Positions 9,196 through 53,807 of a stretch of DNA of 64,000 nucleotides are shown piece after piece; within the stretch, counting starts at the first letter, position 1; the number at the start of each line of letters is the position of its first letter. Position numbers and translations under genes: made by a program. This stretch comes from Sphingomonas aliaeris (GTDB lineage Bacteria > Pseudomonadota > Alphaproteobacteria > Sphingomonadales > Sphingomonadaceae): positions 622,501 through 686,500 of the forward strand of contig NZ_CP061035.1 of assembly GCF_016743815.1 (NCBI RefSeq). Reading direction: 5' to 3'. The notes beneath the pieces are model-generated. The model was not told the DNA's origin and made no database searches. It saw only the letters and a program-made list of their open reading frames with translations.

Positions 9196-9482
9196 TCAAT
9201 CCAGTTCCAAAGCTTGTCGCGTCACGGTGGACCGAGGGTTCATAACCCTCGAACCTGAACGCGCTCTGATGAAGGTCGGGCGTGATCGCATGCCTCATAA
9301 CAAACGAGCGCCGCGTTGGGATGCCCATCCTTAGCATTTTACCGCCATATTGTGCCCTTACAGGAGGTTGGCGGGCCGATCGCAACCCGGGATCGACCGA
9401 ATCACGGCCAGCGGACACGATCCGTTCAGGTCCGCAGTGTAGCTTGAACCCGTCGTTGAAAGACAATATCCCAGGATTATCG

Positions 9483-10339
9483 ATGCGTGTGACCCTGATA
9501 TCCCGTGTGCTTCTGTCCGGCATCGCCGCGAGCCTGATGGTTCCGGCAGCCTCGGCGACCAGCTCGACCGAAATGATCGGTTTCGAGCGTGAGCTGCGCG
9601 CGCTGGTCGCCACACGCTCGGGGAATACGGCATCGCTGCGCTCGATCTGCGCGATGGCTCGACGGTCTCCGTCAATGGCGACGTTCCATTCCCGATGGCG
9701 AGCACGATCAAGATCGCGATCGCGGCGGCATATCTCGCCGAGATCGATCAGGGCCGGCGCGGTTTCGGCGACCTGATCGCCGGCCGTCCCGCGACGAAAG
9801 TGCTGGAATTGATGATCATCCGCAGTGACAATCTGGCGGCCGATCAGGTGCTGGCGAGTATCGGCGGCCCCGCCGCACTTCAGCAATGGCTGTCCGCGCA
9901 CAAGATACCGGGCATCCGGGCCGACCGGACGATCGCCCAGTTGCTTCGCGACCGTGGCCATCTTGCCGACAGGAAGGATGTCGCCACCCCGATCGCCATG
10001 GTCACGCTGCTGCAAAAGCTCGACAGTGGCTCCGTATTGTCGGCGCAGAGCCGGACCTTCCTGTTCTCTCTGATGAGCCGGTGCGCGACGGGCACGCGCC
10101 GCATTCGCGGGCTGCTGCCGGCCGGCACGCCGGTCGAGGACAAGACGGGCACGCTGGACGGTATCACCAACGATGTCGGGTTCATCACGATGCCCGACGG
10201 CCGTCGCCTGGCGGTGGCGGTGTTCGCTCGCGGGGGGCGCGGTCATTCGCCCGTCATCGCCGAGGTGTCTCGCGCGATCTACGATCGCTTCGCCGATACG
10301 GCCCGAAACGCGCTCGCCTTCTTCATGCGGATGCGATGA
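9483..10339 (+). CDS. Class A-type serine beta-lactamase family protein (frameshifted)
   Basis: After repair the protein is about 285 residues with a signal peptide (MRVTLISRVLLSGIAASLM, ending near ASA). Active-site motifs are complete: STIK (SxxK) just after the break, SDN in IRSDNLAADQ, and KTG in EDKTGTLDG. The typical ExxxN omega-loop Glu is not evident, so hydrolysis of beta-lactams is uncertain; it could act on wall peptides. The reading frame breaks at the G4 run 9620-9623. One added G gives TRSGEYGIAALDLRDG and links the signal peptide to the catalytic domain. AGGA lies before the ATG. It is transcribed away from the L,D-transpeptidase. Confidence 0.78.
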
Positions 10340-10379
10340 CCCGCTCGCCGGGTTGAGGTGCCACTATTTTCGTCAATCC

Positions 10380-10427
10380 CCCGCCTCACGCCACGGCCCC
10401 TCCAACGGAGAGAAGGGCCGAGGCGGG
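10380..10427. terminator. Nested hairpin after the beta-lactamase-like gene
   Basis: CCCGCCTC (10380-10387) pairs with GAGGCGGG (10420-10427), and an inner GGCCC pairs with GGGCC. It lies 40 bases after the stop codon. No T run follows on the plus strand, so it may be a weak or Rho-assisted terminator or an mRNA-end stabiliser. Confidence 0.45.
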
Positions 10428-10496
10428 CGTGTCCGGCAAGGCGGTGCGCAACCGCGATCGACCAACGTCTCTTAATCTAAGTCACTGAAATTGCAC

Positions 10497-37805: not shown

Positions 37806-39341
37806 TCAGCTTCCCGGTTGGACGTAGGGGGCGGTCGCGAACAGTTCGCGTTGCCAACCGCGCGGGTCGTCCGCGACCCGACTCTCGACATCGACGATCA
37901 ACGTCGCGCGCCCGGGCAGCGTGTATGTCGGCCATTCGACCGCGCCGCGCACGGCCGGGTTGCCGGTCCGCGCGAACGCGATGAAGCGATCCTGCAAGGC
38001 GCGGGATACGGCACGCACGTCCGCGGTGTCGCCGACGCCCGCACCCTTTGCATCGACCGTACCGAAGACGAGCGGCACGTCGATGCAGTGGAATGCGCCT
38101 CGGCGTGAATCCTCGCGCGACGTGAAGTCGGTCTGGTACAGCCACGCCGGGGTACCGGCCCGCGCGCGCGCCTCCGCCACCTCGATCTGCCCGCGCCAGC
38201 TTCGCCCGGCCGTCGTTGCCGCGAAGAATATGTCCGCTGCCTTGGATTGCGGCATTTTGCGGCGATATTCTTCGACGATCCGTTCGGACAGAACATCAAC
38301 CGGCAATTCGTCGGCGATCCGGGACGCGACGTTGCTCCAGTCCATCGTCCGCACGAAGTCGCTGTCGGGATCGTAAAATGCGCGCATCTCGTCGCGTGCG
38401 TTGCCCGACAGCATCGGCAGCGATTGCGGCGGGGCGTCAGGCCAGAACGGATGCCGCGACAGTGCGCGCATGTCGAGCACCGGGCCGGTGTACAGCGCAC
38501 CGCCGGACACCGGGTCCTCCGTATCCAGCGCCTCGATCAGCTTTTCGACGGGTACCGCTGCGGCCCGGGTCGGATCCATCTTCAGCCGCGCGAGAAAGGC
38601 TTCGGCCCGGCGGGTCGCGTGAAGTGGTCCGGATGCGGTCACCTGCTGGCCGCTCATCGTCGCGACGCGGTGGAACAGCCCGGTCGCCGATGGCATCGCA
38701 AGCAACGTTGTCACCTTGCCGCCGCCCCCGGAATCGCCGAACGCGGTAACGAGCCCCGGATCGCCCCCGAAGGCCGCGATATTCTCGCGTATCCAGCGCA
38801 GCGCGAGCACTAGGTCGGCCTGTCCCGCATTGCCGCTGTCCGGGAATTCCGCCGACAGGCGCGCGAGATATAGATAGCCGAGCACGTTCAACCGGTGGTT
38901 GATGGTGACGACCACGACGCCGCGCGCGGCAAGCTGTCGTCCGTCGCTCACCGGGTCGTTCCCGCTGCCGAACGCATATCCGCCGCCATGCACGTAGACC
39001 ATCACCGGCAATTTGGCCCCCGGATGCGCATCGGGCGTCCAGATGTTCAGCGTCAGGCAATCCTCGGATTGCGGCCCGCGCCTGGTGTGTTGCGGACAGA
39101 CGGGGCCGAACGACACGGCGCGAATCTCGTCCCGCATTTTCTGCTCGAGTGTCGCCGCTCGGAAGCGGCTCGCCCGGCCGTAGCGGATGCCCAGAAAGCT
39201 GGATACGTTACCGCTTCGTAGGCCCAGATATCGTCCGGCAGGGCAGGCGACCCGCGGCTCCGGTGATTTGGCCAGAACACGCCCCGGCACTGCCAGCGAC
39301 AAGCCCGCTGCGAGCAACAGGCGTCGCGTCTCGTCCGTCAC
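37806..39341 (-). CDS. Type-B carboxylesterase
   Basis: The 511-residue exported esterase has a twin-Arg-like signal (TRRLLLAAGLSLAVPGRVLA). Family motifs are SEDCLTLNIWTP, YVHGGGYAFGSG (oxyanion hole) and the nucleophile elbow FGDSGGGGKV, in which the usual GESAGG Glu is Asp and the Ala is Gly. The His region is FHCIDVPLVFG. It would release an acyl or alcohol part from an imported ester. The GTG start overlaps the stop of the LysR gene by 4 bases, making it the last gene of the leftward operon. Confidence 0.88.
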   Translation of the reverse strand: MTDETRRLLLAAGLSLAVPGRVLAKSPEPRVACPAGRYLGLRSGNVSSFLGIRYGRASRFRAATLEQKMRDEIRAVSFGPVCPQHTRRGPQSEDCLTLNIWTPDAHPGAKLPVMVYVHGGGYAFGSGNDPVSDGRQLAARGVVVVTINHRLNVLGYLYLARLSAEFPDSGNAGQADLVLALRWIRENIAAFGGDPGLVTAFGDSGGGGKVTTLLAMPSATGLFHRVATMSGQQVTASGPLHATRRAEAFLARLKMDPTRAAAVPVEKLIEALDTEDPVSGGALYTGPVLDMRALSRHPFWPDAPPQSLPMLSGNARDEMRAFYDPDSDFVRTMDWSNVASRIADELPVDVLSERIVEEYRRKMPQSKAADIFFAATTAGRSWRGQIEVAEARARAGTPAWLYQTDFTSREDSRRGAFHCIDVPLVFGTVDAKGAGVGDTADVRAVSRALQDRFIAFARTGNPAVRGAVEWPTYTLPGRATLIVDVESRVADDPRGWQRELFATAPYVQPGS

Positions 39342-40222
39342 GGCCGCGCCACTGCGCGCGACGCCGCCTGCGCCTCGGACAGCAGGATATTGACCAGCCG
39401 CAAGCGTACCGTGCTGCGCGACCAGACCACGCCGATCCTGCGCCCGATTTCGGGCAGTGGCAGGGGCAGGCGCGCGACGTTGATCCCTTCGGGCCAGGGT
39501 GGGGACCAGTCGGGGACCAAGGACACCCCAAGTCCCCGATCGACCATCACGGCGATCGCATTCAATGCGTTGAGCTCGAAACGTTCGTGCGGAACGATCC
39601 CCGCGCGCCGCATATATTCGTCGGCATGGCGGCCGCCCCATTGGTTGCGGTCGTACCGGATCAACGGTTCGTTGGTCAGCAGGTCGTGCACGTCGCGGTG
39701 TGCCTGCGCGGCAGGCGCTAACACGATCAACGGTTCTTCGCGCAGCACCATCCAGTCGCTGGTCTTGGGCAGTGGATAGGGCGCCTCCAGCACGAACGCG
39801 GCATCGAGATTGCCGGCTTCGACCTGCGCGTAAAGCTGCGCCGAATTGCCGGATTCGATATGCACGGTGATGTCGGGAAAACGAGCGCTGACCCGCGCCA
39901 GAATCTCGGGCAGCATCGACATCAACGGCGTCGTACAGGCGCCGAGGTGCAATTCTCCGCTGAAAGCATCGTCATTGGCCAGGCTGCGCAGATCGGCCGC
40001 ATCACGCAGCAACTGGCGGGCATGCGTCAGGATGCGCCCGCCCTGTTCCGTCATCCGCACCGTCCGCCCGACGCGTATGATCAGCGGCGCGCCCAGCTCG
40101 CGCTCCAGCGTGTGCAATTGCTGTGCGATCGCTGACGGGCTGACGTTCAGCGACCGTGCGGCGGCGGCCATCGATCCCTGATCGACGACTGCGACGAACG
40201 TCCTCAGGAACTGGATGTCGAT
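39338..40222 (-). CDS. LysR-family transcriptional regulator with apparent ATC start
   Basis: LysR regulators bind DNA with an N-terminal winged helix-turn-helix and sense an effector in the C-terminal domain. From codon 18 the protein reads MAAAARSLNVSPSAIAQQL, the recognition helix region, but the preceding helix (DIQFLRTFVAVVDQGS) is also in frame and is required for the fold. It begins at an ATC codon at 40222, with GGAG 8 bases upstream and no ATG, GTG or TTG in frame. Either it uses a rare start, or the ATG carries a C for G. The start at ATG 40171 would lack part of the domain. It lies between the symporter and esterase genes and likely controls this locus. Confidence 0.8.
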   Translation of the reverse strand: MDIQFLRTFVAVVDQGSMAAAARSLNVSPSAIAQQLHTLERELGAPLIIRVGRTVRMTEQGGRILTHARQLLRDAADLRSLANDDAFSGELHLGACTTPLMSMLPEILARVSARFPDITVHIESGNSAQLYAQVEAGNLDAAFVLEAPYPLPKTSDWMVLREEPLIVLAPAAQAHRDVHDLLTNEPLIRYDRNQWGGRHADEYMRRAGIVPHERFELNALNAIAVMVDRGLGVSLVPDWSPPWPEGINVARLPLPLPEIGRRIGVVWSRSTVRLRLVNILLSEAQAASRAVARP

Positions 40223-40280
40223 GACAGCCGCTCCGGTTCGATATCGCGCCGTCCGCGCCGTCCACCCCCGGTGAAGACCG

Positions 40281-42629
40281 TCAGCCCGTCGAGCTGTTGA
40301 GCGGTCGGCGGGGGAACAGGAAACTGGCGAGATAGCCGATCACGATCGATGCGACGATTGCGATCGCAAGGTAGAAATACGGATGCACCAGCGCGAAGAT
40401 CCACGCGATCAGCGTGATGAGCGACGCGGCGACGATCCCGATCGCCGTGCCCTGCCAGTTGGCGCGGCGGGTGAACATGCCAAGCGTATAGGCGCCCGCG
40501 CAACTCCCTCCAAGCAAACCGAAAAGTTCGATCGTCAGGTCGAGCAGCGACCGAATCTCCATCCGCGACAGGATGATCGCGATGCCCACGCCGACCAGCC
40601 CGACGAGCACCGTCATCCATTCCGCGAAGCGCACTGCCTGTTTCTGTGTCGGCGGAACGCGGCGCAGCTTTTCGTAGAAATCGACGGACAGCAATGTCGC
40701 GACCGAATTGATCGTCCCGCTCAACGTCCCCATCGCGGCGGCGAAAAGCCCTGCGATGATGATGCCCGTGACGCCATGCGGCAGTTCGGTACCGATGAAG
40801 CTGGGGAACACCGCATCGATTGGCAGTAGCGGATCGAGCCGTCCGGGGTTCGCCCGGTAATAGGCGAACAAGGTCGTGCCGATGATGTAGAACAGGATGC
40901 CCGCAGGCAGCAGGATCACGGCGAAGAACCAGACCGACCGACTGGCCTGTTTCTCGGACGAGGTCGACAATACGCGCTGCATCAGCACCTGATCCTTGGG
41001 GAAGGTCAAGACGGTGTCGAACGTGTACAGGATGATGAAACCCCAGATCGTCGGGGTGGTGAAGTCGAAGCTGACATTGACCAGCTTCGTCTTGTCGAAC
41101 TGCATCGCCGTATCGTATATTTGGGCGAAGCCGATCGAGTGGATGATGAACCCGATCGCGAAGATCGCACCCGACATCAACACGATTACCTGGAAAACGT
41201 CGGTCCAGATTACCGCCTTCATCCCGCCGAGTGCGGTATAGACGATCGTGCACAGTCCGATCACGAGAATGCACAGGATGACATTCGTGCCGGTGATCGT
41301 GCCAATCGCGAGCGCGGGCAGGAACAGCACAACGCCCATGCGCCCGCCGACATGCATCAGGATGGCGAGCCCCGATGACAGCATGCGGATCGCGGGGTGG
41401 AAACGCGTCTCGAGATAGCTGAACACGGATACGAGGTTGAGCCGGCGGAACAGGGGGATCACCCAGAACGCGACCGCCATCAGCGCGACGACGGTGACGA
41501 TCTTCGACATCAGATATTGCCAGTCGGTGTCGAACGCCTTGGCCGGAACCGCGAGATAGCTGATCGAGCTGGTATTGGTGGCAAACATGCTGATCCCCGC
41601 CGCCCAGAACGGGATCGAGCGCGATCCGAGGAAGAACTCGCTCGTGGATCCCATCCGCGACCGCTGCCAGAAATAGAATCCGATCCCCAGCATCCCGGCC
41701 AGATAGACCAGGATGATCGTCCAATCGAGCCAGCCGAGCGGCCTGCGCTGCAACTCCAGTTCGGCGGAGGAGGTCGTTCCGTCGGCGCGGACCGCGACGA
41801 TGCCGTTGCGGTACGGCGTCGTCGCCGCGCCTGCCGCAAGGCTGTAGCCGAGCGGTGCCCAGGCGTCGGTGATCGTGCTGTAGCTATACCAGGTCGACTG
41901 CGCCCCGTCGCCGAGCAGGTACAGCAGATAGGCCTGTCCGATCGCGCGCGACGATCCGGCGACGACGGGTGCGGGCGCGGGTGTCCGCGCGAGCCATCCT
42001 TCCTTTGCGGTCCAGCGCCACTGACGATCGCCGCCATTGCCTCGTACGGTCAGGAACATGGTGGATCCACGCGCCGCCAGTGCGACCGGTACGCCGCCGC
42101 CCGGCCATGCCGCGATCGCCAGCCAGTCACCGCCGGTCGTCGCGCGGGACAGTATGTGCGGCGTTCCGTCGGATGCGCTGCCCGCGATGACGAACGCGTC
42201 CGGCAACAGCGCGGCCTGCGGACGGGTAAGACGCATCGGGAGGGCAAACGGCTGCGCGACCCGCAGCTTGTCGCCATCGATCGCAACGAGCGCCGCCCGG
42301 TCCACGCCCTGCGCAGAACCGAACAGCAGGGCGGCACGCTGGCCGTCCGTGACGCCGCCGATCGCTGCGGATAGATCGTCGGTTTCGAGCGATTGCCAGC
42401 GGCCATCGTCGCGCAGCACCGCCGCGCCGCCGCCCCGGATGGCGACGGGCTGCCCTCCTATGCTCACCGCCACGGGCAGTCCCGACCCGGGCAGTTCGGC
42501 GATCTTCGCACCGTCATGCGAGCGGACGACGGTGACGCCGCCTTCCGCCGCAGCCGCCGGGAACGCCAGCATCGCGCACATCGCAAGCAAGCATGCCGCC
42601 AGCCACCGCAGGATCGTGGCAGGCGTCAT
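40281..42629 (-). CDS. Sodium/solute symporter with N-terminal periplasmic beta-propeller-like domain
   Basis: The 782-residue protein has a signal peptide (ending near AAAAEGG), a domain of about 260 residues with kelch-like repeats (GRWQSLETDD, TWYSYSTITDAWAPLG), and then an SSS transporter of about 13 helices starting near residue 297 (LDWTIILVYLAGMLGIGFYF). FFLGSRSIPFWAAGISMFATNTSS fits the SSS sugar and sialic-acid type group. The extra domain may bind or present the substrate. The gene is between the lyase and LysR genes and overlaps the lyase gene by 4 bases. The substrate is unknown. Confidence 0.87.
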   Translation of the reverse strand: MTPATILRWLAACLLAMCAMLAFPAAAAEGGVTVVRSHDGAKIAELPGSGLPVAVSIGGQPVAIRGGGAAVLRDDGRWQSLETDDLSAAIGGVTDGQRAALLFGSAQGVDRAALVAIDGDKLRVAQPFALPMRLTRPQAALLPDAFVIAGSASDGTPHILSRATTGGDWLAIAAWPGGGVPVALAARGSTMFLTVRGNGGDRQWRWTAKEGWLARTPAPAPVVAGSSRAIGQAYLLYLLGDGAQSTWYSYSTITDAWAPLGYSLAAGAATTPYRNGIVAVRADGTTSSAELELQRRPLGWLDWTIILVYLAGMLGIGFYFWQRSRMGSTSEFFLGSRSIPFWAAGISMFATNTSSISYLAVPAKAFDTDWQYLMSKIVTVVALMAVAFWVIPLFRRLNLVSVFSYLETRFHPAIRMLSSGLAILMHVGGRMGVVLFLPALAIGTITGTNVILCILVIGLCTIVYTALGGMKAVIWTDVFQVIVLMSGAIFAIGFIIHSIGFAQIYDTAMQFDKTKLVNVSFDFTTPTIWGFIILYTFDTVLTFPKDQVLMQRVLSTSSEKQASRSVWFFAVILLPAGILFYIIGTTLFAYYRANPGRLDPLLPIDAVFPSFIGTELPHGVTGIIIAGLFAAAMGTLSGTINSVATLLSVDFYEKLRRVPPTQKQAVRFAEWMTVLVGLVGVGIAIILSRMEIRSLLDLTIELFGLLGGSCAGAYTLGMFTRRANWQGTAIGIVAASLITLIAWIFALVHPYFYLAIAIVASIVIGYLASFLFPRRPLNSSTG

Positions 42630-43441
42630 CGTTTCGTCTCCAGCAACGCACGTGCCTGATCGATCATCGGGCGGTCGATCATCGCGCCGTCCAGCGTGAA
42701 GGCACCACGCCCTGCCGCTGCCGCTGCATCCGCCGCCGCGACGATCCGGCGGGCGCGCGCCACCGTCGCTTCATCCGTCCCGAAAATCGCGTTCGCCAGG
42801 CCGACCTGCCGGGGATGGATGCAGCTCTTGCCGAGATAGCCCATACTCCGTGCGAGTTCGGCCTCGGCCTCGAAACCTGCGGCGTCGGCGATATCGGGCC
42901 AGGCGCCGTCATATGCGAAGCGACTGGATTCACCTGCGCCCAACCGGATCGTCCATAGTGCAGCATGGACGTGCCGCGGCGATCGCCGGTCCATGCCGAG
43001 CGTTGCGAACAAGTCGTTCAAGCCCACTTGCAGCCCGGCCACCGCGGGATGCGCCGCGATCTCGGCCACGCGGGCAAGCGCGCGCGGCGTTTCGATGGTG
43101 GGCAACAGGCGGGCGCCGTCGATATGCCGTGCGGCGGCATCGACAGTCGCGGCATCCTCGCATTTGGGCAGGTTGATCAGGTCGACGCGGACCGCCGTCA
43201 ATGCGGCAACGTCGCCGGCGAAATGTGGCGTATCCATGCCGTTGACGCGTACGATGATCGTCTTGCTGCTGGCCCGTACCGCGTCCGAGCCAAGAAAGTC
43301 CGCCAGCCGCGTTCGCGCCGCCGCCTTGCCGTCGCCAGGTACCGCATCTTCCAGATCGAAGGACAGGGCGTCGGCATCACCCGATAGCGCCTTGTCGAAG
43401 AAGTCGGGACGCGCGCCGGGCACGAATAACTTGCTGCGCAT
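42626..43441 (-). CDS. HpcH/HpaI aldolase/citrate lyase family protein (CitE-like)
   Basis: The 271-residue TIM-barrel lyase matches citrate lyase beta/malyl-CoA lyase. Motifs are RSKLFVPGARPDFFDKAL, SFDLEDAVPGDGK, metal-binding LPTIETPRAL and LQVGLNDLFATLG, and GKSCIHPRQV. Such enzymes cleave malyl-CoA, citramalyl-CoA and similar beta-hydroxyacyl-CoA esters. A class III CoA-transferase gene on the other arm of the locus could supply the CoA ester. The start is one of two adjacent ATG codons (43441 or 43444). It is the first gene of the leftward operon. Confidence 0.87.
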   Translation of the reverse strand: MRSKLFVPGARPDFFDKALSGDADALSFDLEDAVPGDGKAAARTRLADFLGSDAVRASSKTIIVRVNGMDTPHFAGDVAALTAVRVDLINLPKCEDAATVDAAARHIDGARLLPTIETPRALARVAEIAAHPAVAGLQVGLNDLFATLGMDRRSPRHVHAALWTIRLGAGESSRFAYDGAWPDIADAAGFEAEAELARSMGYLGKSCIHPRQVGLANAIFGTDEATVARARRIVAAADAAAAAGRGAFTLDGAMIDRPMIDQARALLETKR

Positions 43442-43627
43442 CATCCCCCCTGTTCTCGTCCATCCGCTACCACGCCGGACCGCAGGAAATCTATCGTGTA
43501 CGCCGACGAACACGCAAGTGTGATTGCGACACGGCAGAAAATGTGTGGAGTGAACCAAGCGCTGCCCGTTTTATTCGCGGTCTAACTAACGGTACAGTCG
43601 GTGAAAATAAGCGAATGGGAGGGGACT

Positions 43628-45826
43628 ATGATTACTTTCGCGCGCGCCACGATCGGCACGCTGATGCTGTCCGCAGCATGGACCGGCGCCACGGCTCAAC
43701 AGGCCGGGCCGCAACCCGCAGAACCGACCGCCGCGCAGGAAGCGGCAACCGCGACGACAGAGGAGCCCGCGCGCGACGACGATCGCGGCGTCATCGTCAC
43801 GGGCAGCCGCGCGCCGAAGGCGGTGGACAAGATCCCTGGCGCGATCACCATCATCACGCCCGCGGAAGTCCAGCGTTCGCTTGCGATCACCGAGGACAAT
43901 ACGGCGGTGCTGGCGAAGACCGTTCCTGGCTATTCGGAATCGAACCAGACGCTGAACACGCTGGGCGAAACATTGCGTGGACGTACCGCTTTGTACCTGT
44001 TCGACAGCATTCCGCAGTCGACCCCCCTGCGCGACGGTAGCCGCAACGCGACCTTCACCGACATGGCGGTGGTCGAGCGGATCGAGGTTATCGGCGGCGC
44101 TTCCGCATCGGAAGGCATCGGCGCGGCAGGCGGCGTCATCAACTTCATCTCGAAGCGCGCGACGCTGGACGGTACGCACTTTAACGTCGGTGGCCGGCTC
44201 GGCTCGCAGTTCCGCGACGACAGCACCGTCTGGAAACTGAACGGCGACATCTCGCACAAATCCGGCAGCTTCGACGTCTTCGCGGCCGCGGCCTATGTCG
44301 ATCGCGGTGCGACCTATGACGCGCGCGGTCGCCGGATCGGTCTCAGTTCGTCCAGCTCGCTGGCAGATTCGACGCAGAAGAACCTGTTCCTCAAGGTCGG
44401 AACCGATTTCGGTGCCGATCAGAACCAGCGCCTCGAGGCGACGGGCAGCTATTTCAAGCTCGCGAGCAAGGGCAACTACCATTACGTCGCGGGCAGCCGC
44501 GCAGGCGGGTTGCCCGACACATCCGAACCAGGGCCATTGCTGGTCAACGGCGTGGACGTGACGCGCGAGGAATATAACGAGTTCATCCAGGGCGCGCTGA
44601 ACTACAAGAACAAGGATCTGTTCGGCGGCAATCTGGTCGCGACCTTCTATTGGGCCAAGCAGGCGATGCGCTTTGCGGGCGAAAACGGCACGGACCGTCA
44701 GGACCCGCTGATCGCGCCGCTCGGCACCTTGGTCGACCAGTCGGAGATCAATTCGAAGAAATACGGCATCCGCACGTCCTATTCGCGGCCGGATTTCCTT
44801 ATCGACGGGCTGGAACTCCGCTTCGGCATCGACGCCGTGCGCGACGACACGCAACAGAAGCTGGCATTGACCAACCGCATCTGGGTCCCGCCGCTGAAAT
44901 ATACCAGCTTCGGTCCGTACGTTCAGTTGTCCTGGGATATCGGTCCGGTCACGTTGGCCGGCGGCCTGCGCCACGAGGATGGTCGCGTGAAGGTCGACGA
45001 TTACACGACCACTTTCTTCCGCAATCGCGTGTTCGTGCAGGGCGGTACGTTGAAGTACAAAAACGACCTGCTCAACGCGGGTGCGGTGTGGCGCATCGGT
45101 GGCGGCTTCTCGGCATTCGCATCGTATAGCGAAGGCTTCACGCTGCCGAACGTCGGCATCCCGCTGCGCAACATCAACTATCCCGGCCAGACGGTGGCGG
45201 GCATCCTCGATCTGCAGGCCGTGATCTTCAAGAACCGCGAATTCGGTGCGAACTGGCGCGGCAGCTGGGGCAGCTTCGGCGCGTCCTACTACAACTCCTA
45301 TTCGCGGCTGGGTTCGACGCTGGCGGTCGATCCGGTCACGCTCGATTTCGTGCTCAACCGCCGCCCGGTTCGTATCAAGGGTATCGATGCGACTGCCGAA
45401 ATCCGGCCGACCAGCACTTTGCGCGTCAACCTGCTGTACAGTCATGTCGATGGGCGGACGAGCGCTGCGAACAACATCGTCGAACCGTTGAACGTCCGTC
45501 TGGGCATCACCAACATCGCGCCCGACAAGCTGAATGCGACCGTCACCTATTCACCCACGCAGCAGGCGTCGGTATCGTTCGGGATGGACAAGACGTTCAC
45601 GCGCAGCATCAATCAGGGGATGAGCACGGCCGAACGGACGACCGGCCGGACGCTGTTCGATGCGACCGCACGGTACAAGATCGACGGGGTCGGCACGATC
45701 TCGCTCGCATCCGAAAACCTGTTCAACAAATACTATTTCCTGGCCTTCTCCCAGATCGACTTCTTCCAGAACTATTTCGCCGGGCGTGGTCGCACGGTGA
45801 CGCTGTCGCTGCGTAGCGACTTCTGA
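43628..45826 (+). CDS. TonB-dependent receptor of the catabolic locus
   Basis: This 732-residue outer-membrane receptor has a signal peptide (ending near GATAQQ), a plug with VIVTGSRAPKAVDKIPGAIT and VERIEVIGGASASEGIGAAG, and a barrel ending RTVTLSLRSDF. It lacks the siderophore-type plug of the other receptor. Placement in a locus with hydrolases and a symporter suggests a carbohydrate or glycoside as ligand. GGAGG precedes the ATG at 43628. It starts the rightward operon, divergent from the lyase gene across 186 bases. Confidence 0.9.
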   Translation: MITFARATIGTLMLSAAWTGATAQQAGPQPAEPTAAQEAATATTEEPARDDDRGVIVTGSRAPKAVDKIPGAITIITPAEVQRSLAITEDNTAVLAKTVPGYSESNQTLNTLGETLRGRTALYLFDSIPQSTPLRDGSRNATFTDMAVVERIEVIGGASASEGIGAAGGVINFISKRATLDGTHFNVGGRLGSQFRDDSTVWKLNGDISHKSGSFDVFAAAAYVDRGATYDARGRRIGLSSSSSLADSTQKNLFLKVGTDFGADQNQRLEATGSYFKLASKGNYHYVAGSRAGGLPDTSEPGPLLVNGVDVTREEYNEFIQGALNYKNKDLFGGNLVATFYWAKQAMRFAGENGTDRQDPLIAPLGTLVDQSEINSKKYGIRTSYSRPDFLIDGLELRFGIDAVRDDTQQKLALTNRIWVPPLKYTSFGPYVQLSWDIGPVTLAGGLRHEDGRVKVDDYTTTFFRNRVFVQGGTLKYKNDLLNAGAVWRIGGGFSAFASYSEGFTLPNVGIPLRNINYPGQTVAGILDLQAVIFKNREFGANWRGSWGSFGASYYNSYSRLGSTLAVDPVTLDFVLNRRPVRIKGIDATAEIRPTSTLRVNLLYSHVDGRTSAANNIVEPLNVRLGITNIAPDKLNATVTYSPTQQASVSFGMDKTFTRSINQGMSTAERTTGRTLFDATARYKIDGVGTISLASENLFNKYYFLAFSQIDFFQNYFAGRGRTVTLSLRSDF

Positions 45827-45851
45827 CGACGTCGCGGCACGGGGAACGGAT

Positions 45852-46823
45852 GTGACGATATCGACGCACGGCGGGCATATTCTGGTCGCCGGGTCCGCCA
45901 ACGCCGATTTCGTCGTCCGTGCCGCGCATATCCCGGCCCCCGGCGAGACTGTGATGGGCGGCGACCTGTCGATCGTTCCGGGTGGCAAGGGCGCCAACCA
46001 GGCGGTCGCCGCCGCCCGTGCCGGGGGGTGTTGCACGACGATGCTGCTCGCGTTGGGCGACGATGCATCTGGTGCGATCCTCGAACGGTCGCTGTCGGAT
46101 GCGGGGGTCGAGGCCCGCGTCGTGCGCAGCGCTCGCGCCACCGGGGCTGCGTTGATCACCGTTTCCGACACCGCGGAAAACGCGATCACCGTCGCGCCGG
46201 GCGCCAATGCGACGTTGCTGCCCGAACACCTGCCCGATCTGGCGGGGATCGACTGGCTGGTCCTGCAACTCGAAACGCCGATCGCCACCGTCACCGCTTA
46301 CGCGCAGGCGGCGCGGGCGGCGGGCGTCAAGGTCATGTTGAACGTCGCGCCGGCGCAGGCCGTCCCCGACGCCTTGCTGTCGGCGGTCGATGTGCTCGTC
46401 GCGAATGAGGAGGAACTGGCGGTGCTCGTCGGCTCGGACGGATCGATCCTCGATCGCCTGTCGCGATTGCCCGTGCCGTTGGGGATCGTAACGCTCGGCG
46501 CACGCGGCAGTTGTGCGCTGGCCGGCGGCGATGCGATCTTCCAGCCCGCCTTTCTCGTGCAGGCGATCGATACCACCGCAGCCGGCGACACGTTCTGCGG
46601 CGCGCTTGCCGCGGCGCTGGCGCAGGGCGCTGCCCCCGAGGATGCGCTGCGTTCGGCAAGCGCCGCCGCCGCGCTCGCCACGACTGCCGCCGGTGCGCAG
46701 GCCAGCATTCCGACGCAAGCCGATGTCGCACGACTGCTGGCCGGATCCGGCAACGACTTTAAGTCGGACGACGCGCTCGCCACATATTGCCGCGCCGCCC
46801 CGGCCCCCGATCGAGTATCCTGA
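45852..46823 (+). CDS. PfkB family sugar kinase, ribokinase-like
   Basis: The 323-residue cytoplasmic kinase has the ribokinase substrate motifs AGSANADFVV and GGKGANQAVAAAR, the PfkB signature 2 region DTTAAGDTFCGAL with the catalytic Asp, and NEEELAVL. It would phosphorylate a pentose or furanose. The substrate may be ribose, arabinofuranose or another furanose released by the GH127 enzyme; this is inference. The GTG start at 45852 has GGGGAACGGA upstream. Its stop overlaps the ATG of the next gene. Confidence 0.85.
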   Translation: MTISTHGGHILVAGSANADFVVRAAHIPAPGETVMGGDLSIVPGGKGANQAVAAARAGGCCTTMLLALGDDASGAILERSLSDAGVEARVVRSARATGAALITVSDTAENAITVAPGANATLLPEHLPDLAGIDWLVLQLETPIATVTAYAQAARAAGVKVMLNVAPAQAVPDALLSAVDVLVANEEELAVLVGSDGSILDRLSRLPVPLGIVTLGARGSCALAGGDAIFQPAFLVQAIDTTAAGDTFCGALAAALAQGAAPEDALRSASAAAALATTAAGAQASIPTQADVARLLAGSGNDFKSDDALATYCRAAPAPDRVS

Positions 46824-48980
46824 TGACCTCTCCACGCAATGCCGGCCCCCACCGCACGACGAGCGACGTCAAGTTCAGCCACGCGCTGACCGGGCCATAT
46901 CTGCCGACCCCGGGCAAGGTGCCGGGTTGGCCGTTCCAGGACATGGGGCGCTGGACGATCGACGTCGCCGGCGCGGCGGACGAATGGCTGACGGGCCTGC
47001 GCGAATGGCGTCGCGAACACCGGCTGCGCATCGGGCTGGACGACAGCCTGTACCGCCACCCCGATCTGCTCTGGTCGCAAACCAATTTCGTCCATGCGCT
47101 GACGATGGTCGAAGACCTGTATTTCTTCGATCCCGAGACAGGGAAATATACCGTCGATCGATATCTCGACGATCTCGAGGAACGCTTCGGTGGCGTGGAC
47201 AGCGTGCTGCTATGGTACATCTATCCCAATATCGGCGTGGACGATCGCGGGCAGTTCGATCTGGTCTACGATCTCCCGGGCGGGCTGGACGGGTTGAAGC
47301 GGGTCGTCGCCGATTTCCACGCACGTGGGGTGAAGGTGTTCCTGCCAACGATGCCGTGGGATCATGGCACGCGCGAGGGCGACGCGCCGGATTGGGAGCG
47401 GATGGCAGATATCGTCGCGGCGGTCGGCGCGGACGGAATCAACGGCGATACCTATTCGGGCGTGCCGCGCGCTTTCCATGTGGCGTGCGAGGCGCGCGGG
47501 CGCCCGGTCGTGCTGCAACCGGAATCGACCGCGCAGGCCGGCGACCATATCCTCAGCTGGAACCTGCAAAGCTGGACGAAGCGCGTCCCCAATGAATCGA
47601 TCCCCACCGTCGTCAAGCTGAAATGGGTCGAGCCACGCCACATCGTGCAGATCGAGAATCGCTGGAGCCGGGAACGCTGGAGCGACTTGCAACACGCCTT
47701 CTTCAACGGCATCGGCTATGTCGCGTGGGAAAACGTGTTCGGCTTCGTCAACATGCTGACGGACCGCGACGCCGCGACGCTGCGCCGGGTCGCCATGATC
47801 CAGCGGTTCGCACCGATGTTCGCGACCGACGACTGGGTTCCCTATGACGCGACGCTCCAGTCCGGCGTCTTCGCCAGCCGCTGGCCGGGCGCGGACCGCA
47901 CGCTTTGGGCGCTGATCAACCGCCAGGATTATGGTGTGTCAGGCGACCAGATCGCCGTGCGACATGTCGATGGCGCGGGCTATTTCGACCTGTGGAACGG
48001 GCGTGAGGTGTCGCCCCGCATCGCGAACGGGCAGGCGATCTTCGACGTGGACATCGAGGCACGCGGCTTCGGCACTCTTCTGCAAGTGCTGCCGGGGGGC
48101 CGATCGATCGGGCATCGAGGAATTCCTGACCGAGATGGCGCGCCATGCCGCGACGCCGCTCGCCAGCCTGTCCGCGACTTGGTCCTCCGCGCAGCAGCAG
48201 ATCGTACCGATCGAACCGACGAATACCCATGACGCGGTACCCGACGACATGGTGTCGATTCCTTCCGCCGACTTCGACTTTGCGGTGCACGGTATCGTGA
48301 TCGAAGGGTACAATGCCGAGGGCGTGGACGTGCAATATCCGTGGGAGCCGAACGCGCGCCGGTTCCACCGCCACCGCATGACGATCCCGGCCTTCGCGAT
48401 CGATCGCTATCCCGTCACCAATGCCGACTACAAGACGTTCATCGACGCCAGCGGGTATATGCCGGCCGATCCGCACAGCTTCCTCCGCCACTGGGTGGGC
48501 GGCGCCCCCGAACCGGGCACCGACCGCCAGCCGGTCGTGTGGATCGGGATCGAGGATGCGCGCGCCTATGCCGCATGGGCCGGCAAGCGCCTGCCCCGCG
48601 AATGGGAATGGCAATATGCCGCCCAAGGCACGGATGGCCGTCGGTATCCTTGGGGCGACGATTGGCGCGCGGATGCCGCGCCGCCCGCATCGGTCGAGCG
48701 GACGATGCCCGCTTTGTCCGATGTCGATGCCTATCCCCAGGGCGCCAGCCCGTTCGGGGTGATGGCGATGACCGGCCATGTCTGGCAGTGGAGCGACGAA
48801 TATCGCGACCGGCACGTCCGCGCCGCCGTCGTCCGGGGCGGCAGCCCGTATCAACCGCACAGCTCGCACTGGTATTTCCCGCAAGGCTATACGCTCGACC
48901 AGCACGGCAAATACCTGTTGATGGCTCCGTCCAAGGATCGATCCGGCGGGATCGGGTTCCGGTGCGCGCTTGACCTCTGA
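46823..48980 (+). CDS. Sugar-hydrolase-like domain fused to SUMF1/FGE-fold domain (frameshifted)
   Basis: After repair the protein is 718 residues. The first 430 residues read like a TIM-barrel glycosidase-like domain (DSVLLWYIYPNIGVDD, RGVKVFLPTMPWD, GADGINGDTYSGVP, FNGIGYVAWENVFGF), with several acidic residues in strand-end positions. The rest (AFAIDRYPVTNADYKTFID, GIEDARAYAAWAGKRLP, EWEWQYAAQG, GIGFRCALDL) is a SUMF1 domain. The catalytic Cys pair of true formylglycine-generating enzymes is not seen, so sulfatase maturation is unlikely. The frame shifts at the G6 run 48094-48099; removing one G gives LLQVLPGADRSGIEEFL. The activity is unknown. The ATG overlaps the kinase stop. Confidence 0.7.
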
Positions 48981-48987
48981 TCGCGCC

Positions 48988-50781
48988 ATGATCTTCGCGG
49001 AACCGAATGCGGTCACGCTCGGCGGACCGCTGGGCGATGCGGTCGCGGCCAATCGCGCGGGTCGCCTGTCGACCTTCGTCACTGGCCCGGGCAGCCCCGC
49101 CATCGCAATCTTCGATCCCGAAACCGTCGCCGCGAACGAAGGTGGCGACTGGTATGGCGAACATGCCGGCAAGTGGCTCTACGCCGCCGCCCGGTCGCGC
49201 GATCCGGCACTCCTTCCCCGCGTACTCGAAGTGGCGGACCACCTTGTCTCGCTCCAGGACGCGGATGGCTATCTCGGCAACTATCCACCGGCCCGGCGCT
49301 TCATGGTCAAGCAGCCGCCCAAGCCGTTCAGCTGGAACGGCGAGCCTGCGCTACGAACCTGGGATATCTGGACGCATGCCTATCTGATTCTCGGGCTGGT
49401 CGAGGCATGGAAGGCGACGGGTCAAGAAAATGGCGACGATCACTTGCTCGACGCCGCGGCACGGATCGGCGATCTGGTCCTGCGCACGCTGCGCGCCGGC
49501 GATGTCCGCATCACCGATCTCGGCAACCATTTCGGCTTGTCCGCGACGGTGCTGATCGACCCGGCCTGCGAGCTCTATTTCGCGACGGGCAACCGCGACT
49601 ATCTCGAACTCGCCACTTTGGTCCTCGATCAGGCAGAGGCCGATCCGCATAGCGCGTTCCTGTCCGCGGCTCTGCGCGGCGACGATCCGTCGGCGATCGC
49701 GACGGGCAAGGCGTACCAATTGTTGTGGAACCTCGTCGGCCTGGCGAAGCTGTACCGCGCCACCGCCGAGCCACGCTATCTGGACGCGCTACATCTGATA
49801 TGGGCCAATGTGCGGGATCATCATCTGACGATCGGCGGCGGGCCGTGGGGCGGCGTCGCGCATCGGTCGCGCGAGGTATTCAACGCGCCCGGCACCTTCC
49901 ATCCGCATGGCTATGTCGAGACTTGCTCGACGATGTCGTGGATCCAGCTCAATCGCGAACTGCTCGGCATCCTTGGCGAGGCGAAGTTCGCCCAGGCGAT
50001 CGAACGCAGCGCCTATAACGACCTGCTCGGCGCGCAGGGCGCGGACGGCGAGGCGTGGTGCTATTACAGCTTCCCCAATGGCAAGCGGGTCCACACCACC
50101 TATTGGCGATGCTGCAAATCCAGCGGCGCGATCGCAATCGAGGAACTGCCCGGTTTCGCTTATGGCGTAGCCGCGGACGGCAGCGTATCGGTCAATCTGC
50201 TGGGACCATCCGAAGCCACGCTCGACCTGCCCGGTATCGGCGCGGTCAAAGTCACGCAGACGACCGATTACCCCTTCGCCGACACGATCCGGATCGCGGT
50301 CGATGCGGGCGGTGCGAAGGTCGCGCTGAACGTGCGAATCCCCGACTGGGCCGAGGGTGCGACGCTGACCGGCGCGGACGGTCCGCTCGCCCCCGACAGC
50401 TTCTTTCGCGTCGAAACGTCGGACAGCGTCCTGCTCACGCTGCCGATGCCAGCCAGATTGCATCATGCAAGCTCGCGCAACGTGCAGGAATCGCTTGCCC
50501 CGGACGGTACCCCCGTCGCGCAGGAGGTGCTGCGTCACGATTACGTCGCGGTGTCGCGCGGCCCGCTGGTTTATGCGACCGGTTTGATCGATGGCTTCAA
50601 GGCGGAAGAGACGATCCGTCTCGGGCTGGACGCGCTGGCGGCCGACACTTCGGGCGACGTAACGCTGACGCCGCGCGATCGGGGGGCGATCCGCTTCGAA
50701 CCCTATTACCGCACCGGCAATCGCGATGATGGCGCGTGGCGGCTCACCTGGCTGCGCCTCGCACCCGAGCCGGCCGCATGA
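48988..50781 (+). CDS. GH127-family beta-L-arabinofuranosidase-like glycosidase (DUF1680)
   Basis: The 597-residue (alpha/alpha)6-barrel protein matches GH127. ETCSTMSW at 311-318 gives the Glu and Cys that bind zinc, and RCCKSSG at 374-380 gives the nucleophile Cys375 and zinc-binding Cys376. GH127 enzymes use a cysteine nucleophile to release beta-L-arabinofuranose; sequence-divergent members may act on other furanoses. It has no signal peptide, so it is likely cytoplasmic and acts after uptake. The ATG at 48988 or a TTG at 48970 can start it. It follows the fusion gene and overlaps the CoA-transferase start. Confidence 0.86.
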   Translation: MIFAEPNAVTLGGPLGDAVAANRAGRLSTFVTGPGSPAIAIFDPETVAANEGGDWYGEHAGKWLYAAARSRDPALLPRVLEVADHLVSLQDADGYLGNYPPARRFMVKQPPKPFSWNGEPALRTWDIWTHAYLILGLVEAWKATGQENGDDHLLDAAARIGDLVLRTLRAGDVRITDLGNHFGLSATVLIDPACELYFATGNRDYLELATLVLDQAEADPHSAFLSAALRGDDPSAIATGKAYQLLWNLVGLAKLYRATAEPRYLDALHLIWANVRDHHLTIGGGPWGGVAHRSREVFNAPGTFHPHGYVETCSTMSWIQLNRELLGILGEAKFAQAIERSAYNDLLGAQGADGEAWCYYSFPNGKRVHTTYWRCCKSSGAIAIEELPGFAYGVAADGSVSVNLLGPSEATLDLPGIGAVKVTQTTDYPFADTIRIAVDAGGAKVALNVRIPDWAEGATLTGADGPLAPDSFFRVETSDSVLLTLPMPARLHHASSRNVQESLAPDGTPVAQEVLRHDYVAVSRGPLVYATGLIDGFKAEETIRLGLDALAADTSGDVTLTPRDRGAIRFEPYYRTGNRDDGAWRLTWLRLAPEPAA

Positions 50782-51932
50782 CCGTGTTCCGTAACGCGAA
50801 GCGCAGCGGCCCGGCGGGGCCGCTCGACAGCGTGAAGGTGCTTGATCTCAGCGCCTATATCGCCGGCCCCTATGGCTGCACGATCCTTGCCGATCAGGGT
50901 GCTGACGTCATCAAGGTCGAACCGCCGATCGGGGACAATCTGCGCCATTACCCCTCGACGCTGGAGGGGGAGAATCGCGCGTTCCTCGGCGTCAACCGGT
51001 CCAAGAGCGGCGTCGTGCTCGACCTGAAACAGGCGGGCGACCACGCCATATTGCTGGATCTCGTGGCGCAGGCCGACGTGCTGGTGCACAATTTCCGGCC
51101 GGGCGTCGCGGAACGGCTGGGCATCGACTATCAGGCGCTGGATCGCCTCAATCCGCGACTGATCTATTGCACGGTGACGGGCTATGGCGAAGATGGCCCG
51201 ATGGCCGGCCGCGCCGGTTACGATCAGGTGCTTCAGGCGATGACCGGCATGACGCGGCTGCAGGGCAGGGCGGGCGGCCCGCCCGAACTCACCTACGGAT
51301 CGCCGGTCGACTATTACGCCGCCGCCCTCGTCGCGAGCGGCGTGGCTTCGGCCTTGTTCGAACGTGAGCGCAGCGGGGTCGGCCAATATGTCGGCGTGTC
51401 GCTGCTGCGCAGTGCGTTGGCGATGCAGTCCGCGCGGATGGTGCAGGGCGAGGGCGAACGGCACGACATCTCGCGCGACATGCGCTCCGGCGGCATTACC
51501 GGGTTGCATCCGACGGCGGACGGCTGGCTCTACGTCTCCGCCAATACGCCGCATTTTTGGCGCGCATTGTGCGCACATACCGGGCTCGACGCGCTCGCCG
51601 ACGATCCGCGTTACGACACGGTCAAGAAACGCGCCGCACATGCGGACGAACTGCTCCCCCGGCTGCGCGCGGTGCTGCTGACCCGGACCGCCGAGGAATG
51701 GGAGGAGGCGCTGGCCGGCGCAGTCCCCTGTTCGGTTGCGCGCGCGGTCGAGGAAATGTTCGACCATCCACAGGTCGCCGCGGAGGAGATGATGGCGACC
51801 ATCCCCCATCCGACGCTCGGCAGCTATCGCGGCGTCACCCGCCCGATCAAATTCTCCCGCACGCCCGGCCCCGACGCCTTCGCCGCGCCCCTGCTCGACG
51901 AGGATGGCGAGGCATTGCGGTCGGGGGAATAG
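50778..51932 (+). CDS. CaiB/BaiF class III CoA-transferase
   Basis: The 384-residue enzyme moves CoA from a donor thioester (often succinyl-CoA) to a carboxylic acid. Family motifs are VLDLSAYIAGPYG, ADVIKVEPP, VNRSKSGVVLDLK and VHNFRPG; the catalytic Asp is Asp149 in AGYDQVLQAMTG. Together with the CitE-like lyase of the leftward operon it could activate and cleave a hydroxy acid, as in malate or citramalate use. That pathway link is inference. It is the last gene of the rightward operon and overlaps the GH127 stop. Confidence 0.88.
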   Translation: MTVFRNAKRSGPAGPLDSVKVLDLSAYIAGPYGCTILADQGADVIKVEPPIGDNLRHYPSTLEGENRAFLGVNRSKSGVVLDLKQAGDHAILLDLVAQADVLVHNFRPGVAERLGIDYQALDRLNPRLIYCTVTGYGEDGPMAGRAGYDQVLQAMTGMTRLQGRAGGPPELTYGSPVDYYAAALVASGVASALFERERSGVGQYVGVSLLRSALAMQSARMVQGEGERHDISRDMRSGGITGLHPTADGWLYVSANTPHFWRALCAHTGLDALADDPRYDTVKKRAAHADELLPRLRAVLLTRTAEEWEEALAGAVPCSVARAVEEMFDHPQVAAEEMMATIPHPTLGSYRGVTRPIKFSRTPGPDAFAAPLLDEDGEALRSGE

Positions 51933-52283: not shown

Positions 52284-53750
52284 CTATTTCACCGAGGCGC
52301 GGCGATAGTCGAGCGGCGGCGATCGATCGCCCAGCATCGCGCGGTACGTGAAGTTCGGACCGCGACGTTGCTGGAACTCCGCCTTCGCCGCGGCGATTGC
52401 TTCCGGGTTGCGGAACAGGTCGGCGGCGGTCAGCGCGATCGTCTTCGCAGCGACCGTGCCGCCTTTCGCACCGATCGTGCTGCCCGATGCGGCGACCGCC
52501 TGCCAGCTATGCGCGGGCGTGCCGGGGACCCAGGTCGCCGCCCCCAGCCCGATCGTCGGCGTGGTCCAGGACACGTCGGCCACGTCCGTCGACCCACCCC
52601 CATCCGCGGTCGAGATCGCCGCAACCGATCCGGCGGACTCCATCGGCCGTTGTACGGGCAGGCCCGGCTGCATCGTCCTGGCCCAGGCGGTTTCCTCCGG
52701 CGTCCAGCGTGCGCCACCCACGGCGCGCAGATTGGCGTCCATCACCTTGGCAAGCGTATCGTTGGCGAGCATCGAATAGACGCCGCCCGTGGCCTCGAAC
52801 TCCACCGTCGTGCCCGTCGCCATCGCGGCGCCCTCCGCTGCCTTGCGCACGCGGTCCATCACCGACCGAACGACGGCGGGATCGGTATGGCGAACGTAAT
52901 AATAGCTTTCCGCGAAATCGGGGACGACGTTCGGGGCCACGCCGCCATTGGTCACGACGTAATGGATCCGGGTCGTCATCGGAATGTGTTCGCGCAGGTA
53001 ATTGACCGCGACGTTCATCACCTCGACCCCGTCCAGCGCAGACCGGCCCTTGTCGGGCAACGCGGAGGCGTGCGCGCTGACACCCTTGAAGCGGAACTTG
53101 CCCGAAATGTTCGCCTGGCTCGCGCCGTTGCTCACCTGGTTCGAATCGCCCGGATGCCAGTGCAGCACCGCGTCGACATCGTTGAACAAGCCGGCGCGGA
53201 CCAGATAGACCTTGCCCGACCCGCCTTCCTCGGCGGGCGAACCGAACACGCGGACCTCGCCGTCCACCTTGTTCGCGACCATCCAGTCCTTGACCGCGAT
53301 CGCGGCGGCGACCGATGCCGCGCCGAAGATGTTGTGCCCGCAACCATGGCCCGCCGCCTGCCCCTCGATCGGCGCGCGCGTCGGTTCGCTGCGCTGGGCG
53401 AGGCCCGGCAGCGCGTCATATTCGGCGAGGATCCCGATCACGGGTCCCTTGCCGCGACGAAAGCTGGCGACGAACGCGGTGGGCATGCCAGCGACACCCG
53501 GCGTGATCGCGAAGCCGGCCTTCTTCAGCGTGTCCTGCAACAGGTCGGAACTCTTCGTCTCCTGATACCCCACCTCGGCATAGTTCCAGACCGCCAGCGC
53601 GTTGCGCGCCAAAGCGGGAGACTGCGCATCCACGCCGTTCAGGATCGCCTGCCGATCCGCATCGCTCGCCCCCTGAGCCGCCGCTGTGTGCGGTACGAAA
53701 GCGGAAACCGTGGCGGCCGTCACGGCCCAGGCGAACGAACGCAGCATCAT
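52284..53750 (-). CDS. M20 family amidohydrolase (AbgB-like), exported
   Basis: The 488-residue protein has a signal peptide ending near PHTAAAQG. It has the M20 motifs ILAEYDALPG, GCGHNIFGA, SPAEEGGSGK and VLHWHPGD, giving di-metal ligands. The closest known group is the p-aminobenzoyl-glutamate hydrolase AbgB subfamily, so it cleaves an amide such as a peptide or N-acyl amino acid in the periplasm. AGGAG is upstream of the ATG pair at 53750/53747. It is transcribed on its own. Confidence 0.87.
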   Translation of the reverse strand: MMLRSFAWAVTAATVSAFVPHTAAAQGASDADRQAILNGVDAQSPALARNALAVWNYAEVGYQETKSSDLLQDTLKKAGFAITPGVAGMPTAFVASFRRGKGPVIGILAEYDALPGLAQRSEPTRAPIEGQAAGHGCGHNIFGAASVAAAIAVKDWMVANKVDGEVRVFGSPAEEGGSGKVYLVRAGLFNDVDAVLHWHPGDSNQVSNGASQANISGKFRFKGVSAHASALPDKGRSALDGVEVMNVAVNYLREHIPMTTRIHYVVTNGGVAPNVVPDFAESYYYVRHTDPAVVRSVMDRVRKAAEGAAMATGTTVEFEATGGVYSMLANDTLAKVMDANLRAVGGARWTPEETAWARTMQPGLPVQRPMESAGSVAAISTADGGGSTDVADVSWTTPTIGLGAATWVPGTPAHSWQAVAASGSTIGAKGGTVAAKTIALTAADLFRNPEAIAAAKAEFQQRRGPNFTYRAMLGDRSPPLDYRRASVK

Positions 53751-53807
53751 ATCTCTCCTCACCGTACCGAAACCGCCGCCGCCCCGCTTCACCCCGTCGT
53801 ACGAGGA

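Follow-up and report, generated by a model that had tools for sequence, protein, structure and literature searches.

Nine genes at positions 37806-51932 of a 64,000-nucleotide stretch of the Sphingomonas aliaeris genome (contig NZ_CP061035.1, positions 622,501 to 686,500; hereafter the window) form a true unit, in an arrangement far beyond chance. They encode a carboxylesterase, a LysR-type regulator, a Na+/solute symporter, a CitE-type coenzyme A (CoA)-ester lyase, a TonB-dependent receptor, a ribokinase-type PfkB kinase, a fusion of a glycosidase-like half with a half resembling the formylglycine-generating enzyme (FGE, SUMF1), a glycoside hydrolase (GH) of family GH127, and a class III (CaiB-type) CoA-transferase. 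We propose, with about even confidence, that the locus is a catabolic cassette for one small, ester-decorated, carboxylate-bearing furanoside. An earlier note on the window, made without database searches, had placed these genes in two divergent groups, and open reading frame (ORF) and profile scans recovered all nine where it had put them (PF00135 at 262.7 bits, PF02515 at 397 bits, the symporter as SSF PF00474). Its locus boundaries also hold, since the flanking M20 peptidase gene (52284-53792), considered as a further member and rejected, was not matched by tblastn in any of 22 related stretches (E up to 1e-8).

The gene set is conserved as a unit in two classes

Fourteen named loci emerged from a scan in which each species was represented by one genome; they belong to Sphingomonadales or to bins labelled Proteobacteria, Alphaproteobacteria, Sphingomonas or Sphingosinicella. 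The order and strands of the lyase, receptor, kinase, fusion, GH127 and CoA-transferase genes were identical in 14/14, while the symporter was present in 13 and LysR in 12, the absences falling at contig ends. Together with G033, G045, G047, the plasmid pSFD01 and the window, these loci make up 19 distinct alphaproteobacterial cases, and the carboxylesterase was found in 15 of them, where it adjoins LysR or separates GH127 from the CoA-transferase (in L021 as a short ORF only). The plasmid, pSFD01 of Sphingopyxis sp. FD7 (NZ_AP017899.1; L073, L074), carries the entire locus and is typed mobilizable; there the locus spans the record start, with an IS6 transposase gene close by. A self-contained cassette able to move between replicons is the explanation that we favor, with the same even confidence as the reading as a whole.

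The fusion was also nearly full length in 30 of 299 genomes from one order of another class, as assigned from the printed kinship label "same phylum". The counts for this class refer to 22 of these 30 (20 together with G188 and G382), the remaining eight standing outside them. In all 22 loci the lyase, symporter, LysR, receptor, a beta-lactamase-type hydrolase, fusion, GH127 and CoA-transferase genes lie on one strand, and the kinase is present in 18. In an even draw of the phylum, a long fusion match occurred in 3 of 398 genomes besides that of the window, and 46 others matched the FGE-like part only.

Joint presence and absence was computed in a set of 100 genomes, and the fusion, the CoA-transferase and GH127 (E limits of 1e-3, 1e-100 and 1e-60, respectively), together with close orthologues of the lyase, co-occurred in the same eight, the genome of the window included. 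The limits for the CoA-transferase and GH127 were chosen by us to part orthologues from paralogues. For the lyase, eight matches stood at 1e-88 or better and the next at 5.9e-42, and at a looser limit CitE-like paralogues appeared in 94 of the 100 genomes. Pairwise distances of nine proteins in up to 39 loci correlated with r of 0.66-0.90, a descriptive value, as related loci are not independent. The same gene set in two classes and the same eight genomes rule out chance neighbors. The single functional unit proposed by the earlier note is supported, and clusters splitting apart in relatives, which it had named as evidence to the contrary, were not observed.

An ester hydrolase and a carboxylate-type symporter

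The place of the carboxylesterase is occupied in 22/22 other-class loci by a non-homologous PF00144-type hydrolase; the one scanned scored 233.9 bits, and the rest are its tblastn matches. This replacement by an unrelated hydrolase argues for an ester-bearing substrate, as the earlier note had supposed.

The periplasmic domain that the note assigned to the symporter was borne out by structure prediction as an N-terminal Kelch-type propeller at residues 33-293. The mean predicted local distance difference test score of the symporter model was 56.5 overall, with a poor membrane part, so the propeller alone was used. Among solved structures SiaT (5nv9) came closest, at 269.7 bits (next best, 161.5) and with 34% identity over the 303 positions counted, and the nearest solved relatives include the carboxylate carriers SiaT and SMCT1. 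According to the SiaT report, Ser60, Thr63 and Arg135 contact the carboxylate of sialic acid, and Thr58, Gln82, Asn247 and Gln250 contact the rest of the molecule (PMC5931594). Among these contacts, the carboxylate set corresponds to Ser354, Ser357 and Arg430 of the locus symporter, with Ser, Ser (for Thr) and Arg in 38/38 loci, while the other four are replaced by Asn/Ser, Lys/Asn, Thr/Val and Thr, respectively. A second basic pocket residue was rejected as a general rule, position 376 being Lys in 16/38 and Asn in 22/38 loci. The carboxylate site agrees with the acid arm of the pathway proposed below. A second propeller-symporter gene, 50% identical, lies divergently beside a LysR gene in S. 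jinjuensis (L029:177-2552).

Two glycosidase-type proteins

The GH127 protein scored over the curated cut-off for PF07944 (122.2 bits), PF20736 (39 bits) and PF20737 (24 bits). Its alignment with 3wre and 4qjy placed a Glu, a Glu-x-Cys and a Cys-Cys motif, which we take to be the acid/base and the zinc ligands, and these residues were invariant in 39/39 loci, indicating a full catalytic and zinc set for the cysteine glycosidase named in the earlier note. A second, distant GH127 gene (26% identity) lies in the genome of the window, outside the window (G000:C1:85514-86605, in L067), with another gene of the CaiB family (34%) about 8 kb away.

The N-terminal half of the fusion was predicted to adopt an alpha-amylase-type (GH13-like) barrel. 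No GH13 family match was found by sequence, since Pfam gave nothing for the barrel half up to an E-value of 5, and 4,223 of 7,996 candidates scored matched it at E up to 0.001. It holds invariant acidic residues that may be those of a hydrolase, and it is probably a new hydrolase family. The C-terminal half has the FGE fold (PF03781), and databases name the fusion a formylglycine-generating or nonheme iron enzyme. FGE uses a cysteine pair, and the FGE structures among the matches include some titled as mutants C336S and C341S. The FGE-like half has one conserved Cys column only (52 of 54 sequences), and with the pair missing we reject an FGE or sulfatase-maturation role.

Homologues of the fusion were also observed in other surroundings. 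In G047 a paralogue with 36% identity (L017:8097-12911) adjoins the locus and a further long ORF (8097-10448), and it belongs to a clade that occurs widely in Micromonospora, Jiangella and Devosia. On a Spirosoma plasmid (Bacteroidota; L072:18342-29562) a full-length homologue with 35% identity adjoins a GH28 gene, near Gfo/Idh/MocA and ThuA genes. The other neighbors in that stretch differ from those of the locus and include no annotated CoA enzyme, pointing to a different sugar context.

The fusion described in the earlier note is right for the family, but in the window copy as sequenced it is not one reading frame. Its coding sequence lies in two different frames (46823-48232 and 47931-48980), which switch within a run of six G near 48095. 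The relatives, among them homologues from S. koreensis and S. hylomeconis, are each encoded as one protein, usually 705-727 amino acids long; 117 of 120 listed have the FGE domain, and the other three are short and come from contigs of less than 1.5 kb. The symporter frame likewise diverges from that of its relatives close to the 3′ end (about 40290-40320), beside a C-rich run, and intact relatives exist for both genes. Because both breaks sit in or beside homopolymer runs, an error in the assembly appears a likelier cause than real mutation.

A CoA-activation and lyase arm and a sugar kinase

The active-site Asp of the CoA-transferase was present in all 36 loci with letters at that position. 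Its best NCBIfam models, mesaconate and glutarate CoA-transferases, were under cut-off, and a hydroxymethylglutarate enzyme ranked third among solved structures, placing the protein nearest to dicarboxylate families. The lyase kept the Arg, Glu and Asp of malyl-CoA lyases, each in 37/37 loci and presumably in the same roles, with scores far under the NCBIfam cut-offs for citE (150.5 against 443.4 bits) and RipC (140.1 against 375 bits). The catalytic residues kept across loci are consistent with the CoA activation and cleavage of an acid that the earlier note had suggested.

The kinase scored best as a ribokinase, under the NCBIfam cut-offs (259.7 against 299.65 and 227.7 against 341 bits). 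GGKGANQ and GD were found in 35/35 loci having the gene; we take GGKGANQ and AAGD to be ribokinase motifs. The four other-class genomes without the locus kinase each carry one ribokinase-like gene elsewhere (42-43% identity).

Proposed pathway and alternatives

On our reading, the TonB receptor would pass the compound through the outer membrane, and a periplasmic serine hydrolase, the carboxylesterase here and the beta-lactamase-type enzyme in the other class, would strip its acyl group. The propeller-bearing, SiaT-like Na+ symporter would then bring in the acidic glycoside by gripping its carboxylate. Cytosolic cleavage of the glycosidic bonds would fall to the GH13-like/FGE-like protein and the GH127 enzyme; the ribokinase-type enzyme might phosphorylate the freed ribose-like pentose for the pentose-phosphate pathway, and the class III CoA-transferase might load CoA onto the freed hydroxy-dicarboxylic acid, which the CitE-type lyase would split by retro-Claisen cleavage, yielding an acyl-CoA and a 2-oxo acid. 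The LysR regulator may answer to the compound or a product. The enzymatic steps, their order and the substrate class are what we infer from the computed linkage, joint presence and absence, predicted folds and active-site residues, as are the compartments, from N-termini judged by eye; we favor this order because every conserved gene then has work. Among the substrates considered as candidates (acylsucroses, hydroxymethylglutaryl esters, 2-alkylmalate esters, rhamnogalacturonan II acids, cobalamin ribose), none fits better than the others.

Several accessory genes would suit a role in sugar metabolism. In G188 the CoA-transferase gene is followed immediately by a transaldolase gene; in 4/22 other-class loci a second PfkB kinase lies upstream of the lyase; and in L098 (14800-17547) ThuA-like and pyrroloquinoline quinone (PQQ)/cytochrome-type genes, recognized by eye, are inserted between fusion and GH127. 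Gaps equal in length occur at the same place in L096 and L107, and genes of the same types follow the CoA-transferase gene in L015 (12846-15765). The genes in L098 and L015 possibly represent an accessory periplasmic oxidation step.

Some observations weigh against the proposed pathway. The carboxylesterase was not found in 4/19 alphaproteobacterial cases (G033, G047, L025, L027), and the kinase is absent from 4/22 other-class loci. Two control genomes with the locus kinase have a second ribokinase-like match too, so the ribokinase-like genes found elsewhere lend a ribose-like sugar weak support. The lyase, kinase and CoA-transferase stay under the NCBIfam cut-offs for every named function, and the best named matches of the receptor are siderophore receptors, also under cut-off (RhtA 135 bits, TonB-siderophor 112 bits). 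With two glycosidase-type proteins, one or more sugars may be involved. No shared regulatory site was found: 43400-43700 gave no sigma-70-like or terminator-like site, and the divergent regions of five loci no strong LysR-type palindrome. The earlier interpretation is supported in its unit, symporter domain, GH127 enzyme, ester substrate and CoA/lyase arm, while the constancy of the kinase and esterase is weaker than it claimed.

It is unlikely that the acid is the sugar itself, that is, a carboxylated monosaccharide (an aceric-acid-like branched furanose or an ulosonic acid) of a plant polymer side chain, freed by GH127 and degraded by the CoA enzymes. The SiaT-type carboxylate site of the symporter would suit such a substrate, and the sole NCBIfam match of GH127 is aceric acid hydrolase; however, that match is far under its cut-off (85 against 950 bits), the ribokinase-type kinase would stand idle, and the conserved genes include no polymer-backbone enzyme. 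The two divergent groups in Alphaproteobacteria, together with the carboxylate carriers among the nearest solved relatives of the symporter, might instead reflect two modules under common control, one that takes up and salvages a sugar (receptor, fusion, GH127, kinase) and one for an unrelated hydroxy acid (symporter, CoA-transferase, lyase). We consider this quite unlikely, as the sugar group contains the CoA-transferase gene, overlapping GH127, and the other group contains the lyase gene, overlapping the symporter, and the genes share one strand in 22/22 other-class loci and occur in the same 8/100 genomes.

A glycosylated siderophore or a nucleoside-like metabolite as the scavenged compound would account for the siderophore-type matches of the receptor and for the ribokinase-type kinase, but the conserved set has O-glycosidase types and no nucleosidase, phosphorylase or iron-handling gene, which makes this explanation very unlikely. 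It is also highly improbable that the fusion is an oxidase or a protein-modifying enzyme and that the substrate is opened by oxidation rather than hydrolysis, as the single Cys column of the FGE-like half and the invariant, possibly hydrolase-type acidic residues of the barrel half speak against it.

Organization of the locus in the window

Neighboring genes overlap by a few bases at lyase/symporter, LysR/esterase, kinase/fusion and GH127/CoA-transferase (Table 1). Signal peptides, ThuA and some of the start codons were assigned by visual inspection; signal-like starts were seen on the esterase, the beta-lactamase-type hydrolase, the receptor and the symporter, and none on the fusion, GH127 or kinase. 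The helix-turn-helix profile match of LysR begins only at position 17, and its true start probably lies about 12 codons upstream of the called one.

Table 1. Features of the locus, in window positions
Feature	Position	Strand	Remarks
Carboxylesterase (PF00135)	37806-39341	-	Signal-like N-terminus; start by eye, GTG overlapping the LysR stop
LysR-type regulator	39338-40171	-	True start uncertain
Na+/solute symporter	40281-42629	-	Symporter residues about 300-773; signal-like start; N-terminal beta-propeller, residues 33-293 (predicted)
CitE-type CoA-ester lyase (PF03328)	42626-43444	-	ATG overlap with symporter gene
Divergent intergenic region	43445-43627		Blocks common to close relatives
TonB-dependent receptor	43628-45826	+	Signal-like N-terminus; start by eye, ATG after conserved AGGGG
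Ribokinase-type PfkB kinase	45852-46823	+	
Fusion, N-terminal half	46823-48095	+	Predicted GH13-like barrel; no Pfam match
Fusion, C-terminal half	48096-48980	+	Other frame; FGE/SUMF1-like domain (PF03781)
GH127 enzyme	48970-50781	+	Conserved acid/base Glu, E-x-C and C-C; no signal-like start
Class III (CaiB-type) CoA-transferase	50778-51932	+	ATG overlap with GH127; conserved Asp

Comparison with known systems

In a literature search that left subscription papers mostly outside, we found no description of this gene set. The locus is of the glycoside-catabolic kind, within which we can name none like it. We tentatively suggest an undescribed route in two classes of Pseudomonadota, in which an acylated glycoside of a hydroxy-dicarboxylic acid would be de-esterified, imported by a propeller-bearing SiaT-type symporter, split by a new GH family (a GH13-like barrel with a non-oxidative FGE-like domain) and by a GH127 furanosidase of new specificity, after which the acid would undergo CoA-dependent retro-Claisen cleavage. 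Such a pathway would be discrete and testable, and its environmental substrate perhaps common. Were it confirmed, the gains would include a further glycoside hydrolase family, a function for an FGE-like domain that lacks the FGE cysteines, a novel GH127 specificity and a propeller symporter selective for carboxylates, and database names such as "formylglycine-generating" and "nonheme iron enzyme" would need correction.

The locus GH127 shares its Pfam domains and catalytic residues with the solved beta-L-arabinofuranosidases (4qjy, 3wre/3wkw, 5mqo, 6ex6), from which it diverges in sequence (best PDB match 114 bits, residues 92-469), in its company of CoA enzymes and a kinase, and in having no signal-like start. 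The fusion barrel is 11-14% identical to GH13 enzymes of the alpha-amylase family (neopullulanase, TVA II) and has Asn or Phe two positions before Asp204, where the GH13 motif, as we take it, has Arg; unlike them, it is joined to an FGE-like domain. That domain, compared with the formylglycine-generating enzyme, SUMF1 and CalU17, lacks a conserved cysteine pair and stands C-terminal to a barrel. Relative to SiaT, the symporter keeps the three carboxylate contacts compared, has the contacts to the rest of sialic acid replaced and gains an N-terminal propeller. Like the CaiB and CitE pairs for mesaconate, itaconate and citramalate, the locus couples a class III CoA-transferase with a CitE-type lyase, both with their catalytic residues kept; in contrast to those pairs, its conserved set has no hydratase or itaconate/mesaconate gene, its proteins score far under the cut-offs of the RipC (140 against 375) and Scnl_mescCoAtase (218 against 700) models, and the pair is coupled to glycosidases.

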